Shown: one piece after another, positions 12,819-22,043 of the stretch | How the letters are laid out: every line of letters begins with the position of its first letter | Numbering within the stretch: position 1 is the stretch's first letter | Origin: Plasmodiophora brassicae | Lineage: Eukaryota; Endomyxa; Phytomyxea; Plasmodiophorida; Plasmodiophoridae | Direction of reading: 5' to 3' | Length of the DNA stretch: 64,000 nt | NCBI GenBank assembly: GCA_039704465.1 | Contig: JASFAU010000003.1 | Location: 1,240,001-1,304,000, forward strand | Program-made: the position numbers and the translations under genes | The notes under the pieces: generated by a model | What the model saw: only the letters and a program-made list of their open reading frames with translations | What the model was told of the DNA's origin: nothing | The model's database searches: none

Positions 12819-13874
12819 TCACTTCGGGGACAGCAATCCGTGGGCCAAAGACAGGAACGCCTTCAGGAACGATGCCACAATGGGTAGACCCCAGTGAGAA
12901 GTTGACGTCAGATGCACCTTGTCGAAACCTGTACGCGCAGCTGCCTCTCGAACAAGAAGCTCGAAATCCGATTCCACATGCGCGTCCTTGCGCTGCATAG
13001 CATCAGCGATCTGTGCAAGTGTACGACCTTGAGCGACGGCTTGCTGCACAAAGAACGAGCACAGCACGTAGGTGACGATGCTTTCGTGCTGGACGCCGGC
13101 CGCAATCAGAACGGGAATGTCCCTAATCGGCTGCAAAGACGCGACATAGCACCGGGTCTCTTCTGAGAACGGCACCGACGCTTGACGCCACGATGACCAG
13201 CAGAAATAGATGTCGTCGAGCTGCCGCCAGCTGGGCAGGCAATAGCCGTGATCGATCGGAATCAGCCGATGGAGGCCGCCTACTTCACGCGACAACAGCA
13301 GGTTTCCTTCATGCCTGTCCATGTTGGCGATGCGCAGGTCGAGCAGGCCGATGCGATGAATGTTATCAGCGTCGAACAGGCCCGTGCCGAACTCCTCACA
13401 GGAACCTTCATGGTCGACGTACCGTTGCAGGCTGCCGAACTCCTTCATATGCCGATCAGGGAGCTGGACATCCGCAACCAGGGCACGCGTCTCTGGGACG
13501 CCAGCGAATCCACCATGATCCACGAGGAATGCGGCAACTTCTTTCGAACAGGATTCCCCACGAGCCGCGCCTGACTTCAACGCTTGGCCCGCTTTCTGCG
13601 CCTCCTCGCTTCGCGGCTTGAATACCCATTCAGGATCGCAATCGCAGTTGACGGATGTGTTCAGGGCGTAAGCGCCAGACAGCCCAGCCTCCGAGCCATC
13701 GATGCGACGGCCATGGAACTTGGCGGGCGACAGAGGCGCCATACAGGCGGAAAGCGCACCGCTTGCAATGAGATGGTCGACGAGCGTCGCCGACTTAGCC
13801 GCCGGCTTGACGCGCGCGCTGATCACAACGAGATCGGTCGCACCGACCATGATTGTCACCTCGAGACCGCCCAT
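12819..13874 (-). CDS. Phosphatidylinositol 4-kinase gamma-like kinase
   Basis: An intronless catalytic region close to plant-type PI4K-gamma. Landmarks are GLSGAYAL (glycine-rich part), EWVFKPRSEEA (ATP-binding Lys), KEVAAFLVDHGGFAGVP, IGLLDLRIANMDRHEGNLLL (catalytic loop, DRHxGN), LIPIDHGYCLPS (IDHG in place of DFG) and VPFSEETRCYVASLQPIRD. Family members phosphorylate phosphatidylinositol or, in some plant members, proteins. ATG 13874 is the first ATG. The frame stays open to about 13943, where a branch-like CTAAAT and CAG suggest an upstream exon, so the N terminus is uncertain. No ubiquitin-like N-terminal domain was seen. Confidence 0.85.
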   Translation of the reverse strand: MGGLEVTIMVGATDLVVISARVKPAAKSATLVDHLIASGALSACMAPLSPAKFHGRRIDGSEAGLSGAYALNTSVNCDCDPEWVFKPRSEEAQKAGQALKSGAARGESCSKEVAAFLVDHGGFAGVPETRALVADVQLPDRHMKEFGSLQRYVDHEGSCEEFGTGLFDADNIHRIGLLDLRIANMDRHEGNLLLSREVGGLHRLIPIDHGYCLPSWRQLDDIYFCWSSWRQASVPFSEETRCYVASLQPIRDIPVLIAAGVQHESIVTYVLCSFFVQQAVAQGRTLAQIADAMQRKDAHVESDFELLVREAAARTGFDKVHLTSTSHWGLPIVASFLKAFLSLAHGLLSPK

Positions 13875-14341
13875 GGCGACGCTTGTCGCTCCCACATGCT
13901 TAGACGCGCCCCATGCTTCCGCGTCACCCTCGCACGCTGACACCGTCGTGAATCGATTTAGCTTCGTGACCTCCGCCGCACCGCTCCCGATCAGTAGAAT
14001 CGTGTCGCGCCCTCGGGGAACGTGTTAACACACTGACTGGGTGACCTAATCTTAGCTCGCGTACAGTGGCGCGCGGCACTGCTCCCACGTCACACCCGAT
14101 AATGGATTCGGCGGAATGTTCTGCCACGCGACCGCGGTCGTGCGTACCGTACCGTGCCGCCGAATCGTTTGAAGGCGCGCTGCCAAACCACCAGGATATG
14201 GACCCGCACGGCCTGTATCTCCGACGCACTGCCCTTTAAGAACGTGTGCAAGGATCTGGAGGCCGCACCGGACCCATCACCGGCCGCGTTCTAGAACGGT
14301 GACGCATTCTAGATACGGGTGACGTATGCTATGTGGCAAGT

Positions 14342-14605: not shown

Positions 14606-14780
14606 CCGAGGGCGCTGTATTGTGACCATGGCTCGCAAGAGGACACCCAAGGAATGCCTTCTCGAACCAAGGGGGTTGGGTTGATCAGCGTCAACTACCA
14701 GTCGGAGGTGGTTTGATCTGCAACTTGACAAATCGTCTACCGGCGGCACGGCGCGGCGTTGCGGAGTGCGTCCCGGCGGA

Positions 14781-15767
14781 ATGCAGCGGCAAGGGCCAAG
14801 TGGGCGCCGAGCTAACCGTCGGAATAGTCCGCCGCTATTCGGGGACGACGAGCGTCGAAGTGCGGCATCGGACCGCCGTCGTCGCCGTGCGCAGCATCGC
14901 CCGTTCGCCATGCTGTGTCGATTCGCAGGCAAGTGCCGCAATGGGGACGCATGCCCATTCAAACATGATGCTCGACAGGCCGAGATTTGTCCATTCAATG
15001 TTCGTATGCCCTCGACCTTGATGGTCCTGTTAACTCATGGTTTTGATCGCCAATTTCAGCTCGCTGGACAATGCTCGTTTGGACAGCAATGCAAACGCGT
15101 TCATGGCGAGATGTGCCCAATCTGTTTCCTGCCTGCCTTGCATCCATTTAACACGGCTGCTGCCGAGCAGCATGTCTCCACCTGTAATGGGCCCCCGGCT
15201 GCCACCTCCTCTGTCTCTTTAGAATGCGCAATCTGCTTCGACACTATCGTGCATCAGCGAATCGGCCTCCTCACCCACTGCGATCATATTTTCTGTAAGC
15301 TCGTCATATAGGTTCTCGTTCGCTGTTTCTCAAGCGGCGTTGCAGGTCTCGACTGTATTCGGAAGTGGAGATCGACTCGTGATCCGGACCGCAGAGAGGG
15401 GACCGGACTGTATCGCCAGTGCCCTCTGTGTCGGACTACGTCACCGTTCGTGATTCCGTCGATGTTTTATGTGACGGGTGAGGCGAAACGAGAGCTGATT
15501 GACCGATACGTCGAGAAGTTGAAGATGATACCGTGCAAGTATGAGAGAGGTGGTGGCGAGTGCCGAGCGCAAACGCATTGCATGTATAAGCATACGAAGC
15601 CACCCACGCGTCACCGGCTTCGCAGTCGGCGGACCAGGGATCAGCTGGACCAGGCTCTAGAAATGCTGAGTCTGCTCCTGGAGTCTCTGGACGAACGCGA
15701 CATATCAGTACTGACGTCCACCCTCTGGCACAGCAGTGATGTCGACGATGACGACGGCTACTACTGA
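14781..15767 (+). CDS. Makorin-like CCCH and RING E3 ubiquitin ligase
   Basis: Three exons, introns at 15000-15059 (60 bases) and 15295-15345 (51 bases). The protein has CCCH fingers in makorin order: CRFAGKCRNGDACPFKHD, then LAGQCSFGQQCKRVHG, a makorin-type Cys-His segment (CPICFLPALHPF), a RING (CAICFDTIVHQR, HCDHIFCLDCIRKWR, CPLCR) and a last CCCH finger (CKYERGGGECRAQTHCMYKH). Makorins are RNA-binding E3 ligases. The RING spans the second splice junction, which supports the intron call. The N terminus is Arg-rich and disordered. The C-terminal tail is helical and ends in an acidic run. Confidence 0.9.
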
Positions 15768-15805: not shown

Positions 15806-17124
15806 TTATTGGTATTCATAGTACTTGCGCGTTACTACAATGACGTTGCGTTGACGAAATTTGTCAGCCAACTCGTCCGGGCAGGTGAACACGTGCAGTT
15901 GCTGAAGTCGATGACAATGGCCCAGGATGGCGAACAACGATACACTCGTAACGCCCTCGCACATCCGAAGATTAAGGTCCTCCAGCAGCGTGCAACCTTG
16001 GGCTATCCGGGTGACTGATGAGTCTGTGATACTTGATATGCGGCACAGGGCAAGCTTTCTCAGCTGGGACAAGGAGGCAATCGTCGCAATAGCTTCGTCC
16101 GAGAAGTTCCCGAACGACAGTTCCAACGTTTGCAACTGCAAGCACGATCGAGAAAGGGCGAGGAGCGATCGATCGGTCAGGCGCGGCATGTAGCATAACT
16201 CGAGCTCCAGAAGTGATTCGGATGCCGTCACGAGGGGGATGATACCGAGATCGGAGACATACCGACACATATCCAGGTAGCATGAACGAAGCCCACTGAT
16301 CCCTGCATCTTCACAATCAGAACGCAGTACCAGCGATTGGAAGGGGAATAATCTCACGGGAAACAAGGTCATCATTTACCCAGGTGCAGGCAGTGAGATC
16401 TATTGATTTTACGTTTGCACGAGCGACGAGGACAGCGTCAGATAGGTCATATTCAGTCGAGCTCAGATCCAAATGAAACAAACGCGAGCACGCCCTGAGA
16501 AGAGCTAAGACTATGACAGAGGAGTTCGTCCTCAAGCGACGGAGGTCCAGCCGTCTCATCGCGGTATGCGGGTTAAACTCTACAATCAGTATTTAGAGGC
16601 TGTCATAAAACAGAAAGGAACTGCAGGACCTGGGAGTTCGCCTGCACCGTCCACAAACGTGCACTTCTCCAGAATGAGAGTATGGACACGGGGACACGAT
16701 TTAAGCACAGCCGAAAGACACGGGACCGATACTGCCGTCTCAGAGAGACATAAATACTCGAGAAGTGGGCATCGATGAGCTGCGAGGACCCCAAATTGGC
16801 CGCTGTTGTTAACCGTCTTCATGAAATGATTATGGATCCCTCCTATGTGATATTTCAGCATCAGGAATTGGTAACCTCAGACGCAATGCACGAACCAATA
16901 TCAACGTGCTTCCAGAGCGACGCCTTGAACGATAAGTCTTTCCACGACTGTGACACTAGCGACGTTTTGGCAAGGTCTACTGGGCTCAGCATGCGGCATA
17001 TCTACTTTCAGTTTGAGATGGCGCACGACAATAAGCACTCTGGCCCAGGGGCGGCTCACTTCAACCATCAGCGCTGTCGGCAACTGCCCCAAAGGATCCA
17101 CTTCTGCCAGTATCGCATACATAG
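15806..17124 (-). other. Domain segment: F-box and leucine-rich repeats (FBXL-type)
   Basis: Introns at 17002-17059 (58) and 16843-16895 (53) produce a textbook F-box: LPTALMVEICRMLSPVDLAK followed by TSLVSQSWKDLSF and LWKHVDIGG. Leucine-rich repeats follow through two more introns: CPLLEYLCLSET, CPRVHTLILEKC, CSRLFHLDLSSTEY, CLQLQTLELSFGNFSDEAIA, LRKLALCRISSITDSSV, CTLLEDLNLRMCEGVTSVS, and the end CHRLQQLHVF. FBXL proteins use the F-box to bind SKP1 in SCF ubiquitin ligases and the LRR to bind substrate. It may be a free-standing gene starting at ATG 17122 or the C-terminal part of the kinase-cyclin protein. Confidence 0.85.
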
Positions 17125-19215
17125 CTGGAGACAAGAGTTATTGAAGACAAGCACAATGAATATTGTGCACACGTACGCATTGCAGATCTTGGGGTGGCTA
17201 TCTCTCTCGAAACATTGGGAAACCGAGCCTGAGCAATCAACGAGCATGAGAGGTCGGATGCGAACCTACCCTGAGCGATGGGGGACATACTTTCACGGCA
17301 TAAAGGTCGTACCGCCCACTATCGGAATGCGCAAGTTCATGGAGCTTGAGGAGGTGTGATATGCAGACCGCGACCGATTGATCTTTGACGATCATCGCTG
17401 AGCTATCGGGCATAGAACAACTGCTTTGCTCGTTTCCCGATCGTCGTGCCTCACACCTGCCTGTGAGCCGGCCGGGCGAACAGTCTTCGTACTCTTTGAT
17501 GTACGGATCCAAAACATCACTCTTCTGAACATCAGTTCCAGGAAAGAGGCAAGAGTCAGTCGCGCACATACCATGCTGTCAGAAGGAAGCTGAGACAATT
17601 GTCGAATGGTACACATAATGGCAAGCGCAACCAGTTCTGGATCATCGCCGAACGGATCAGGCCCGTCGACCTGATAAAGCGGTTAGCAATTGCGCCAGTA
17701 ATTCATGAGATGCGACTGAACCATAGACAGCTGCAAGAAGTATAAGGATAGGTCGCGGGACACGGAGCAAGTCGTCGATGTAATCGCATGGAAATATCGC
17801 AGGTAGTTCAAAGGCGTCACGTAAGGGAAATGGCAGCGACAAGAGTTGATGATTGCTATTTCGCGTTGCTGGATGTCTTGACACGTCAGACGATCGCACG
17901 CGTATGACGACAAAGCGGCAATGGTCAGCGGAGGCGAGTGGCTTGACAGTTTGGTTGAGAGTAGCAAACATGTTTCACCGTCAAGTTGGGGGTCGCTTGA
18001 TCTCTTGTCATCGCCTAGGCTGTCGAAAAGATATGCGCAAGTAAACATAGGCGTGCAGCCTAGTTTGACACTACAGCTTCACGTAAGATAATCGAAGTTC
18101 GAGACATGAAACAATATGCCAACTCTTCGGCTAGATCAATCAGCCAGCTTAGAAGCAGACGTCGATTCTTGGCAAGCTTCTTCGCCTGCTTTTCTCGCCT
18201 CCATCTCGCACGGCCGAGGTTGCGGTACTGACGCTTAAAGGATGCCCGCAGCCGGGTCATAATGACCATATTCGTGAGCTTAGCATCGTTGCAGAGATTT
18301 GTACTCCCGTCACGGGTTTGACGAAGAACATCGAAGTACGAATGGGCAAGAACAGCGCCGACGGTTAACCGCTTTGTTGGCGTGATGACAAGGAGTTTCT
18401 TTATGCAACCATAAGTTAGTGGTGGCCTTCCCATACTGGACATAGTTCACGTACCTGGATAAGGTCTAAAGCACACTGATCGGGGACAGTAACGCTCTGC
18501 ATTCTTTTCCCCTCCCAATGAGGCAACCGCGAGGAGTAACCAGGGAGATCCTCAACCCCAGGCCAGGTGTCGGGAGTCGGTGTACCGAGCGTCCTGCGAA
18601 GCTGTTACTAAAGTTCGCATCCGATGACGTAGGGAACTTACGAAAACTGCCTTATCAATAGCGCGAACGAGGATCTGTCGCCAGGCGATCCGTCACCGAA
18701 CGGAGCGCCGCGACCATGAAATTCGTACAAAAGGCACCTTTCCAATGTAAGTTGCACATTACGCAGGTAGAGGTGATCGCAAACCCCAGTTTCCACAGAT
18801 CCGTAAACCCTGTTGATGTCCCGCTTCCTAACAGTTGCTCCGGCGCCGACCAATCAGAATATGCTCCGTCTGTCAACAATCATAAATGAAATACGTAGCC
18901 AAAACGCGGCGATGTACGATACCGACATTCGTCATCGTCCCAGCTGACCAGCTTAGACGATACGCTTGCAAATGTTTCGAGCACAGCAGTAGTAATCGTC
19001 AGTCGAGTGCTATGCCGCTCGACGAGACTTTTGGCAAGGTGGCCACGAAATATGGCGCTAGGCGGGACAATAAACGACATGGTATTGCTTCGTCTGTGGA
19101 ACCTGCGTCAACCTCAGGGGCACTGATCCGTAATAGACGATCGAGCACACCCACCAGTCCATCAAAGCGACTATTTGGAAGACCCACAGACGGATCCAAA
19201 TTGGATCAATTGCAT
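15806..19215 (-). CDS. Predicted CDK-like kinase / cyclin / F-box / LRR fusion protein
   Basis: One minus-strand chain of exons stays in frame through about a dozen short introns. A CDK-type C-lobe is followed in the same uninterrupted exon (18113-18398) by the first helix of a cyclin box. The cyclin ends YDLYAVKARFPNVSREIA. A canonical 52-base intron at 17125-17176 joins this in frame to an F-box and then leucine-rich repeats ending at 15806. Kinase to cyclin is directly supported. Cyclin to F-box depends on that intron. If it is not spliced, the cyclin protein stops at 17061 and a separate F-box gene starts at ATG 17122, with a 62-base overlap. The 5' end is uncertain (ATG 19215 is a candidate). 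Confidence 0.65.
17177..18398 (-). other. Domain segment: two-fold cyclin
   Basis: The cyclin box begins NRRLLLSWLIDLAEELAYC and continues across the 53-base intron 18060-18112 to TPMFTCAYLFDSLG, then ETCLLLSTKLSSHSPPLT, then DIQQREIAIINSCRCHFP and YVTPLNYL, matching the A/B-type cyclin fold. The second fold continues across introns 17671-17721 (51 bases, branch TTGCTAAC) and 17525-17571 (47), with ELVALAIMCTIRQL and the cyclin-B-like end SGRYDLYAVKARF. An intron at 17229-17290 (62) lies near the end. The basic linker before the box (RRQ/KQAKKLAKN) could be a nuclear signal. Confidence 0.8.
18113..19215 (-). other. Domain segment: CDK-type protein kinase (N-lobe degenerate or unresolved)
   Basis: Introns at 18399-18454 (56), 18594-18641 (48) and 18738-18784 (47) bring together YSDWSAPEQLLGSGT (APE motif), DLWKLGCLLYEFHGRGAPFG, then LIRQFSTLGTPTPDTWPGVE, then LPHWEGKRMQ, then LDLIQKLLVITPTKRLTVG and AHSYF. 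GTP.xxWPGV and PTKRLT are diagnostic of the CDK/MAPK group. Upstream of 18880 only fragments are seen: an alpha-C-like CRLLSRLAPYFVATLPKV, and VGIVHRRVLATYF, which would replace HRD by HRR. No DFG was found. The segment may be a pseudokinase, or the N-lobe exons may have been misread. Confidence 0.6.
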
Positions 19216-19618: not shown

Positions 19619-21714
19619 TTACGAGACGACAATCATAGGCGCGTCAAGGTCGAAGCGGACCTTGAGGTGGTCGTCCGTGATGGTGTGGCCGCCTACTGGT
19701 TTGACGTTGCTGGCCAGGTTGACGTTGGAGTCGGTGGCGCCGGAGCCATCGGCTGACGAGGACGACGAGCTCTCGGACGGCGAGCTTGTGGTCGGCGAGC
19801 TCGGCATGGGCTTGGCGGCGGCACCCGTAAACTTGATCGGGCGCGGTTGCAGAGCGGGAACGAGCGGAGCGCTCGTTACGAGTGGCACCACGTACTTCAG
19901 CTGGTATGTGACACCTGACCCTGCAGGGATGTCGAGAGCCTTCACCGTTACATGCTGCTGCATGATGGCCGTCACCGAGAAGTTCGACGGAACAGAGGGC
20001 GACGTCTGAGGACCAGGGGCCGACGTTGCAGGGGCCGACGTTGCAGGAGCCGACGTTGCAGGAGCCGATGTTGCAGGGGCCGACGTCGCAGGGGCGGAAG
20101 TGTTCAACGTGACCACAGGAGGCATAGTCTTGTGCTTGAGGTAAGCAATCATGTTGACCGATGCGGACTTCTCCATGCCAGGACCCAATGACTTGTCGTA
20201 AACGCAGTTCTCGACGAATCCACCGAAGAGCGGGTCGCTGTCGATCATCTCCTTCGGCTGACCGCACAGACAGGCAGTGACAACCTGTAGAGCAATGTCA
20301 TGAACAAGGATGCCTCAGGCCGACGGTGAGACTCTATACCTTCTTAAGAACGACTTCGCTCTCGAAGCAAGGATGTTGCACCTAGCAAGCAATGCACCGT
20401 GAGAAGGAGATATGGAATTACAGAGCATCACTTACGACAATAGATTCGTTGCACTGCTTGACTGGAGGAGGCGGCACTGTGGGAGGCGCGTACGTCGGCG
20501 CCGGCCTGTGTCAGCTGTTAGCATATAACGATTTGGAACGAGAAGGCGGATCCTACGTTGGTTGTGGTGTGGGCTGTGGCGTCGGCTGAGGAGTTGGTGC
20601 AGGTGTCGGCGCTGGCGTTGGAGCGGGGGTCGGTGCAGGCGTTGGCGCAGGCGTCGGTGCTGGCGTGGGCTTCGGCGTCGGTGCAGGCGTAGGGCCTGGA
20701 GTGGGTTTTGGCGTTGGCGCAGGCGTTGGTGCAGGCGTGGGCGCGGGCGTTGGAGCCGGAGTAGGTGCTGGCGTTGGCGCCGGTGTCGGCTTTGGAGTGG
20801 GCGCTGGCGTTGGCATCGGAGTAGGCGCTGGTGTCGGTGGGCACCCTGCATTCTGGTGCGATATCGCACCACCCGCCTTGTAAGTGTCGAAATCTTTGGG
20901 CACCTGCTGACGGCTACCCGTGCAAGACCCACACAGGCCACTGCAGGTGTTGACGTCAGGCGCGTGCTGATTTCAAGGTCATCGACTGAGCACACACGGT
21001 TGTCTCGAGGCCACACTTACCACAACAAACATTTCAGGGCCGCAATCGATTTGCATGGGCGTATTCCCGGACATGAACTTGATACTGGCGACAGAGATGG
21101 ACTGGTCCCACTGGTTGATGTCCTTCGCCGTGTCGACACTGATCTTCATTTTCGGGTCGACATTCTTCTTAACCCAGTCACTCATCTCGCTGAGCGCCAG
21201 TTTGTGACCTGACGTGGGCAACGTCGTTAGCATTGTCTCTTCGTATCGCGGTACCAAGGACAGACCGTTGATCGTGGCGTGCTGCTTGTCAGCTTGCGTA
21301 GCGGTAGTCATCACAAATGTACACCCTTCTCGGGTAATCTGAATGTTGCAGTAGTCGACGTGTGTGAACTGAGGCTCTTTGCCATACATAGGGTTCTCGT
21401 CCGTCTAAAGAGACTGTCAGCGCGATCCGAATAAATAGCACTGGAACTTACGCGAGGAAAGCTCTGCTGGACCTGAAGAAGGACGTCCTCCGACTGGAAC
21501 CCGACAAACAGGCCCTCCCACTGGAAATCGTAACGAGTCTTTTGGTCACACATTCTGGCGTAGCGGCGTCAACCTGATGTTTGGTATCGCGTAGAGATGC
21601 AAATGGAACGTACATGTAATGGGGGTCTCCCGCACCCGAACAGTAGCACCCAGCATCGGTGACAGCTGCTCCTAGAAGAAGCGCAATGGTCAATTTCAAA
21701 GGCACGAACAACAT
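19619..21714 (-). CDS. Secreted von Willebrand factor D-like domain protein with Pro/Thr stalk
   Basis: Seven exons with introns of about 47-59 bases. The signal peptide [17 protein letters not shown] is followed by [20 protein letters not shown] and [12 protein letters not shown], the opening of a vWD domain. Later come a strand-rich middle, [12 protein letters not shown], and [19 protein letters not shown] (cf. LCGLCGNFNG). A long Pro-Thr-Ala repeat follows, then a Cys-containing stretch ([20 protein letters not shown]8-like), APATS repeats and a Ser-rich end. The repeats look like O-glycosylated stalks, so an extracellular adhesive or wall protein is likely. No transmembrane helix is visible at the C terminus. 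A tiny 42-base exon ([14 protein letters not shown]) is inferred. Confidence 0.8.
20015..20096. repeat. 15-base tandem repeat in the vWD-protein gene
   Basis: About five copies of a unit like GGGGCCGACGTTGCA, encoding SAPAT repeats on the minus strand. Single-base differences between units keep the frame, as expected of a coding minisatellite. Confidence 0.85.
20582..20845. repeat. Imperfect tandem repeat encoding a Pro/Thr/Ala stalk
   Basis: A roughly 12-base unit of the kind GGCGTTGGCGCA repeats across about 260 bases. On the minus strand it encodes [13 protein letters not shown] runs with occasional Lys, Met, Gly and Gln. Synonymous variation among units is common, so selection on the peptide rather than recent slippage is likely. 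Confidence 0.85.
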
Positions 21715-22043
21715 CGTGATGTCGTAACGAAAATGTCTTTAAGATGTGGCCGATGAAGCTTTGATATTCCCACGGACGACAGTAGCTGCCCAGTGTGAGT
21801 CACCACAGATCCCATACTGTCACCAGCCATGCAGCGTGAATCACCGTTCAGTCACATCAAGAAGTGTTTGGGAACTGGACCTTCGCGGCTACACTACTGG
21901 TTCAGACGTGTACGTGATATGTGACCGTAGGGTGCAACGGGAAGTACAATAATTATATTGGCCTTATTAGCTGTTTCCTGCGCTGATCATACAGGCCAAA
22001 AACTATAACAGCAACACCAACAAACGACACCTACAAGAGAGTC
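21715..22043. other. Interval without a supported gene
   Basis: Lies upstream of the vWD-protein gene and at the 3' end of the NIPA-like gene. It is more AT-rich than its neighbours. No domain-bearing frame or repeat was seen. It presumably holds a promoter and a polyadenylation region. Confidence 0.4.

Follow-up and report, generated by a model that had tools for sequence, protein, structure and literature searches.

The DNA under study is a stretch of 64,000 nucleotides (the window) from contig JASFAU010000003.1 of Plasmodiophora brassicae (Rhizaria), which harbors on its minus strand a gene of 17 exons (19480-15806; start codon 19480-19478, stop codon 15808-15806). The predicted product, 941 residues long, contains in a single open gene model the C-terminal lobe (C-lobe) of a cyclin-dependent kinase (CDK), a cyclin fold, an F-box and leucine-rich repeats (LRRs). 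In a search of 5.8 billion proteins, the spliced gene retrieved a single record, a deposited, uncharacterised P. brassicae protein, recorded as unnamed protein product and referred to here as P0001, with 96% identity over the full length to a first splice model made by hand. When P0001 was spliced onto the window, the 17 exons were found to be separated by 16 introns of 47-62 nt, and the gene turned out to be longer than the extent (19215-15806) assigned to it in a preliminary description of the locus. The alignment script admitted only GT-AG introns of 40-74 nt, which in part dictates the type and the sizes of the introns obtained; it does not dictate that the protein should match almost perfectly across the joins. 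The two sequences differ at six of the 941 residues (positions 292, 401, 420, 479, 587 and 884) and at none of residues 1-291. They presumably derive from different assemblies, as the window lies on a contig of 1,898,503 bases and P0001 on one of 1,875,601 bases. The source label of P0001 reads "(mitochondrion)" despite the many exons and the 1.88 Mb contig, which is probably an error of the record.

The hand-made model (961 residues) was replaced by the deposited splicing, from which it differs at six places: two introns of the kinase part, intron 18112-18060, an acceptor of the cyclin part together with an intron overlooked there, and one acceptor in the LRR part. All four domain types that had been proposed to lie in one polypeptide are present in P0001, with Pfam matches above the respective cut-offs (F-box-like, 1.4e-9; Pkinase, 3.1e-8; LRR_At5g56370, 5.8e-8; Cyclin_N, 9.2e-8). 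The kinase match depends on the splicing, being under the cut-off (0.046) with the hand-made model and just above it (33.8 against 31.7 bits) with the deposited one.

The CDK-like C-lobe (about residues 152-281) is encoded by exons 4-6 and the start of exon 7 (18869-18327, minus strand). The Pkinase match is restricted to residues 155-279, and, among the best 60 of 396 matches, CDK chains align within residues 157-282, with CDK3 at 3.4e-19, CDK2 at about 2e-16 and CDK1 at about 1.3e-14. The name of CDK-type kinase thus holds for the C-lobe (residues 157-281), and residues 1-155 do not score as a kinase. Exons 1-3 (19480-18927, minus strand; about residues 1-150) occupy the position where the N-terminal lobe (N-lobe) of a kinase is expected, and in all three the coding frame outscores both alternative forward frames; they carry no kinase motif. 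A motif scan of residues 1-290 disclosed no VAxK, HRD or DFG, and no GxGxxG is found ahead of the APE motif, the only one lying at residue 193, after APE and inside the C-lobe. The 155 residues ahead of SAPE show no similarity to CDKs above chance: the score against the P. brassicae CDK was reached by 427 of 1000 shuffled sequences and that against human CDK2 by 887 of 1000. There is also little room for an overlooked N-lobe, provided that the upstream open reading frame (ORF) is a gene, since its stop is just 138 bp away. A degenerate HRD/DFG pair had been considered in exon 3 and was dropped; MAFFT places the catalytic-loop region elsewhere and neither placement is significant, so that only the absence of the motifs is claimed. 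Judging from its sequence, the kinase part is a dead, CDK-derived one in which the C-lobe alone can be recognised. A separate canonical CDK, with PSTAIRE, HRDLKPQN and DFGLARAFG, is encoded elsewhere in the genome (L019, G000:C6:960356-963775, on contig C6; five exons in the aligned part, joined using human CDK2 as a guide).

These data bear directly on the reading advanced in the preliminary description, that is, a self-contained cell-cycle kinase with a built-in activator and a module recruiting the SCF (SKP1-cullin-F-box) ubiquitin ligase. A CDK C-lobe and a cyclin do lie in one chain, as such an enzyme would demand; however, VAxK, HRD and DFG are missing from residues 1-290, residues 1-155 stand at the level of shuffled sequences, and the 138 bp upstream, if the ORF beyond them is a gene, could scarcely accommodate the missing lobe. 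An active, self-activating kinase is therefore extremely improbable.

The junction between the kinase and cyclin parts lies within exon 7 (18398-18124, minus strand), where one open frame, without any intron, runs from the end of the C-lobe through a basic linker into the first part of the cyclin box. Its translation, KLLVITPTKRLTVGAVLAHSYFDVLRQ...RRLLLSWLIDLAED, is free of stops; a stop between the two parts was looked for throughout 18398-18124 and none was found. The single exon joining the two domains, as first described, thus stands, except for its end, which had been set at 18113: the deposited splicing removes 18123-18071 instead of 18112-18060, the quoted tail ELAYC belongs to the intron, and the protein across the true end of the exon reads WLIDLAEDVKLGCTPMF. 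When splice sites were scored by leave-one-out, with a matrix built on only the 15 other introns of the same gene, and ranked among the GTs and AGs of the window, this intron had a donor in the top 45.0% and an acceptor in the top 68.9%.

The cyclin part (about residues 327-575) begins in the last portion of exon 7 and continues through exon 12 (18191-17177, minus strand). Cyclin_N is matched at 9.2e-8 with 32.3 bits, above the cut-off of 23, and the best solved relative is cyclin D1 (1.7e-7, with the hand-made splice model as query). In both alignments with cyclin D1, the Lys of STKL is paired with that of ASKM, and the Glu of QREV/QREI with that of QMEL; we take these two residues to be the ones that contact the CDK. 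The docking groove was mapped through cyclin D1 onto cyclin A, in a register between the two cyclins that we presume to be correct. At this groove, the fusion protein carries Leu at Ile213, Leu at Leu214, Trp at Trp217 and Gln at Gln254. In cyclin A, the cited structural passages give Ile213, Leu214, Trp217, Arg250, Gly251 and Leu253 as the groove for the LFG of p27, with Gln254 as hydrogen-bond partner (PMC10318019). On the aligned sequences, the cyclin part appears diverged while retaining some key residues, and its groove seems partly kept, not clearly intact.

The F-box (about residues 587-631) is encoded by exons 13-14 (17124-16896, minus strand; Pfam F-box-like 1.4e-9 and F-box 7.8e-6, both above the cut-offs) and is followed by the LRRs (about residues 633-941) in exons 15-17 (16842-15809, minus strand; LRR_At5g56370 5.8e-8). 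This half, with its F-box ahead of the repeats, matches FBXL2 (1e-18), FBXL17 (2.5e-15) and SKP2 (7.1e-7), and is ordinary for a protein of the FBXL kind. The idea of a module for SCF recruitment is supported in that the F-box could recruit SKP1; the P. brassicae genome (25,344,181 bases in 21 contigs) contains cullins, a single CKS match and four Skp1 matches, which fall at three loci. A separate LRR gene, matching residues 807-916 at 39%, is located on contig C7; an F-box-like start was seen in it by eye only.

The cyclin and F-box parts are linked by a 52-nt, in-frame, phase-1 GT-AG intron (17176-17125, minus strand), already pointed out in the preliminary description and identical in P0001. 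As this is the join on which the unity of the gene hinges, it might be supposed that gene prediction has fused two genes, one for the kinase and cyclin parts and one for the F-box and LRRs. The neighbouring ORFs do lie near, the upstream one stopping at 138 bp and the convergent downstream one at 38 bp; a Met codon (17122-17120) stands just before the F-box, and the acceptor of the intron is unremarkable (top 40.1% of AGs). However, with GTACGT its donor ranks as fairly strong (top 4.7% of the GTs), and the phase is compatible. If left unspliced, the cyclin frame enters the F-box exon and reaches a stop only at 17063-17061; since this falls beyond the Met codon of the F-box, two separate genes would overlap. 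Moreover, the kinase-cyclin junction is entirely intron-free, and the deposited model has the identical join; the annotation of the species in general drew on RNA-seq evidence (PMC4471660) and on predictors trained on curated genes (PMC6823432). All together, it is very probable that the gene yields a single polypeptide, and two artificially joined genes are unlikely.

A further question is whether the gene is a decaying pseudogene. The coding score was obtained from the codon usage of 14 long ORFs of the window, which are not proven genes, and it is influenced by stops in the other frames. By this score, the coding frame beats both alternative forward frames in 16 of 17 exons (the exception being 17228-17177) and all five alternative frames in 13 of them (the exceptions being 19102-18927, 18869-18785, 17228-17177 and 17001-16896). 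Decay would agree with an N-terminal kinase part beyond recognition and with absolute scores close to zero in many exons, negative in six of the 17; the C-lobe block as a whole is slightly negative (-1.2 per 100 codons). On the other hand, all 17 exons are open in two P. brassicae sequences, which differ by six residue changes with none in residues 1-291, and the coding frame prevails over the two other forward ones in all six blocks scored. A pseudogene is hence quite improbable.

The explanation that we favor, with a probability of about 0.5, is that the locus encodes one protein made of an inactive CDK-derived front, a cyclin fold, an F-box and LRRs, most likely acting as a receptor of an SCF ubiquitin ligase. 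The F-box would bind SKP1-cullin, the LRRs and the cyclin fold would present a substrate or a CDK partner, and the C-lobe of the pseudo-CDK might serve as a structural scaffold or as an additional binding surface; the protein would then unite the workings of cyclin F and SKP2 in a single chain, unlike an active CDK. In proposing this, we infer that it is expressed as one chain and binds SKP1, and that it may have partners, substrates and possibly a role in the cell cycle.

Several data weigh against this explanation, the evidence for which is throughout at the level of sequence. The second half of the cyclin fold is below threshold in Pfam (Cyclin_C, E 0.0029, 18.1 bits against a cut-off of 22). 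A single-sequence AlphaFold model of P0001 reached a mean pLDDT (predicted local distance difference test) of 35.6, and for residues 1-155 as well as for that second half the fold is hence read from the amino acid letters alone. At the cyclin groove, Leu253 of cyclin A is replaced by Pro and Ile213 by Leu, and Arg250 and Gly251 adjoin a gap and are not callable, which makes the docking of RxL-type clients uncertain. Lastly, the CDK2 positions contacted by CKS1, other than E208, are taken by us to be D206, S207, I209, D210, P238 and S239. In the fusion protein D206 and S207 are kept, whereas E208, I209, D210, P238 and S239 are changed, in an alignment made uncertain by an insertion; a CKS1 bridge like that of SKP2 is thus unsupported. 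The cited passages of the structural paper name E208 as a site position and report that CKS1 touches the C-terminal lobe of CDK2 only (PMC10318019). The use of the retained C-lobe as a dock for CKS1 was considered and, as most of the aligned positions have changed, is not proposed.

A different target would be conceivable for the same set of domains: the cyclin part would bind a canonical CDK in trans, the F-box would mark partners or inhibitors of that CDK, and the pseudo-CDK would act as a regulatory lid. The conserved Lys and Glu of the cyclin part and the canonical CDK of the genome are in keeping with such a role, as is the occurrence of inactivated CDK parts beside cyclins in oomycetes and alveolates, mentioned in the main text of a Phytophthora study (PMC3019232). 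The stretch before APE, in which the helix that contacts the cyclin is expected, is nonetheless unrecognisable, so that the lid is guesswork; on the sequence as it stands, this alternative appears rather doubtful.

To place the SCF-receptor explanation among known systems, cyclin F (FBXO1) offers one comparison: it is an SCF receptor in which an F-box and a cyclin fold share one chain, with the F-box first and no known LRR or kinase part. In P0001 the F-box does not precede the cyclin fold, the order being kinase, cyclin, F-box and LRRs; since the order of the parts differs, the protein is not a cyclin F. SKP2, FBXL2 and FBXL17 share with it an F-box followed by LRRs; they are not known to have a cyclin or kinase part. 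Cyclin-CDK fusions made in the laboratory for cell-cycle work, which also hold both partners in one chain, are man-made and reportedly active. In a solved complex (PDB 8BYA; PMC10318019), SKP2 is found together with CDK2 and cyclin A, each being a chain of its own, and in the predicted P. brassicae protein the corresponding parts lie in one chain.

Natural precedents are found in Phytophthora infestans, where, according to the main text of a 2010 study, four CDKs, including PITG_21617, carry C-terminal Cyclin_N and Cyclin_C domains, as confirmed by reverse-transcription PCR (PMC3019232). They are probably inactive, the Asp of subdomain VIb being replaced by Asn, and one of them retains PSTAIRE; related genes are reported there for P. 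ramorum, P. sojae, Hyaloperonospora arabidopsidis, Paramecium aurelia, Tetrahymena thermophila and Theileria annulata (PMC3019232). As in these proteins, likened here by description and not by sequence, the predicted P. brassicae polypeptide contains both domains, with the (probably inactive) kinase first and the cyclin second. The manner of the loss differs, as the P. brassicae fusion lacks VAxK, HRD and DFG altogether instead of having the single replacement. The main text of the same article does not contain the word F-box, and its table gives LRRs only for TKL kinases. The Phytophthora study was the only one on natural CDK-cyclin fusions found in the open-licence papers searched, and no description of the four-part protein was found in the open-licence PMC papers searched, most matches having been judged from their listing alone; neither "cyclin" nor "F-box" occurs in the main text of three P. 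brassicae genome papers. The statement that no standard description of this architecture exists can thus be maintained within that literature for the four-part protein, not for its CDK-cyclin core, described in P. infestans in 2010 (PMC3019232). The new element with respect to the known fusions is the F-box/LRR half.

No protein like the fusion was retrieved besides P0001 in three protein searches (E up to 0.001, 10 and 10; 7994, 7995 and 2611 candidates scored), of which the first two scored only the top word-sharing candidates; relatives with few exact shared words, possibly including the oomycete fusions, would escape. Viral contigs scanned for CDK or cyclin sequences like those of P. brassicae gave no relatives either. 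When the genome listings were compared by eye, the shortest distance on a single contig was about 27 kb between a cyclin and a kinase, and about 53 kb between a cyclin and an F-box. As only 125 of the 360 kinase candidates received a score and the exon-wise listings miss both the kinase and the cyclin part of the fusion gene itself, this speaks only weakly for uniqueness.

As for the surroundings of the gene, the ORFs located upstream (19619-21738, minus strand) gave no Pfam match in the three pieces scanned; by eye, one has a signal-peptide-like start and one is rich in Pro-Thr-Ala repeats. Two ORFs on the plus strand (14685-15767) converge on the fusion gene, with stops 38 bp apart. The first contains a CCCH zinc finger (2.2e-6, above the cut-off) and a sub-threshold RING start, and the second has no match; they resemble E3 ligases of the Makorin type. 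Further downstream, an open frame on the minus strand (12822-14024) carries a phosphatidylinositol 3-/4-kinase domain (PF00454, 3e-20).

Concerning the origin of the protein, it can be tentatively proposed, as a possibility short of an even chance, that an F-box/LRR protein covalently captured a dead CDK and its cyclin to become a single-chain SCF receptor, its core being the pseudo-CDK-cyclin module of stramenopiles and alveolates, present also in Rhizaria. Natural CDK-cyclin fusions are little described and, if this were true, such a module would be of long standing in the SAR (stramenopiles, alveolates and Rhizaria) supergroup and would have been overlooked there. The fact that the rhizarian fusion has lost all the catalytic motifs and carries an F-box/LRR unit suggests that the cyclin has been retained for binding rather than for the activation of a kinase. 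The fusion would tie the recognition by a cyclin directly to ubiquitin tagging within one chain, and might offer a handle on the control of the cell cycle in P. brassicae, the obligate parasite of crop roots that causes clubroot.

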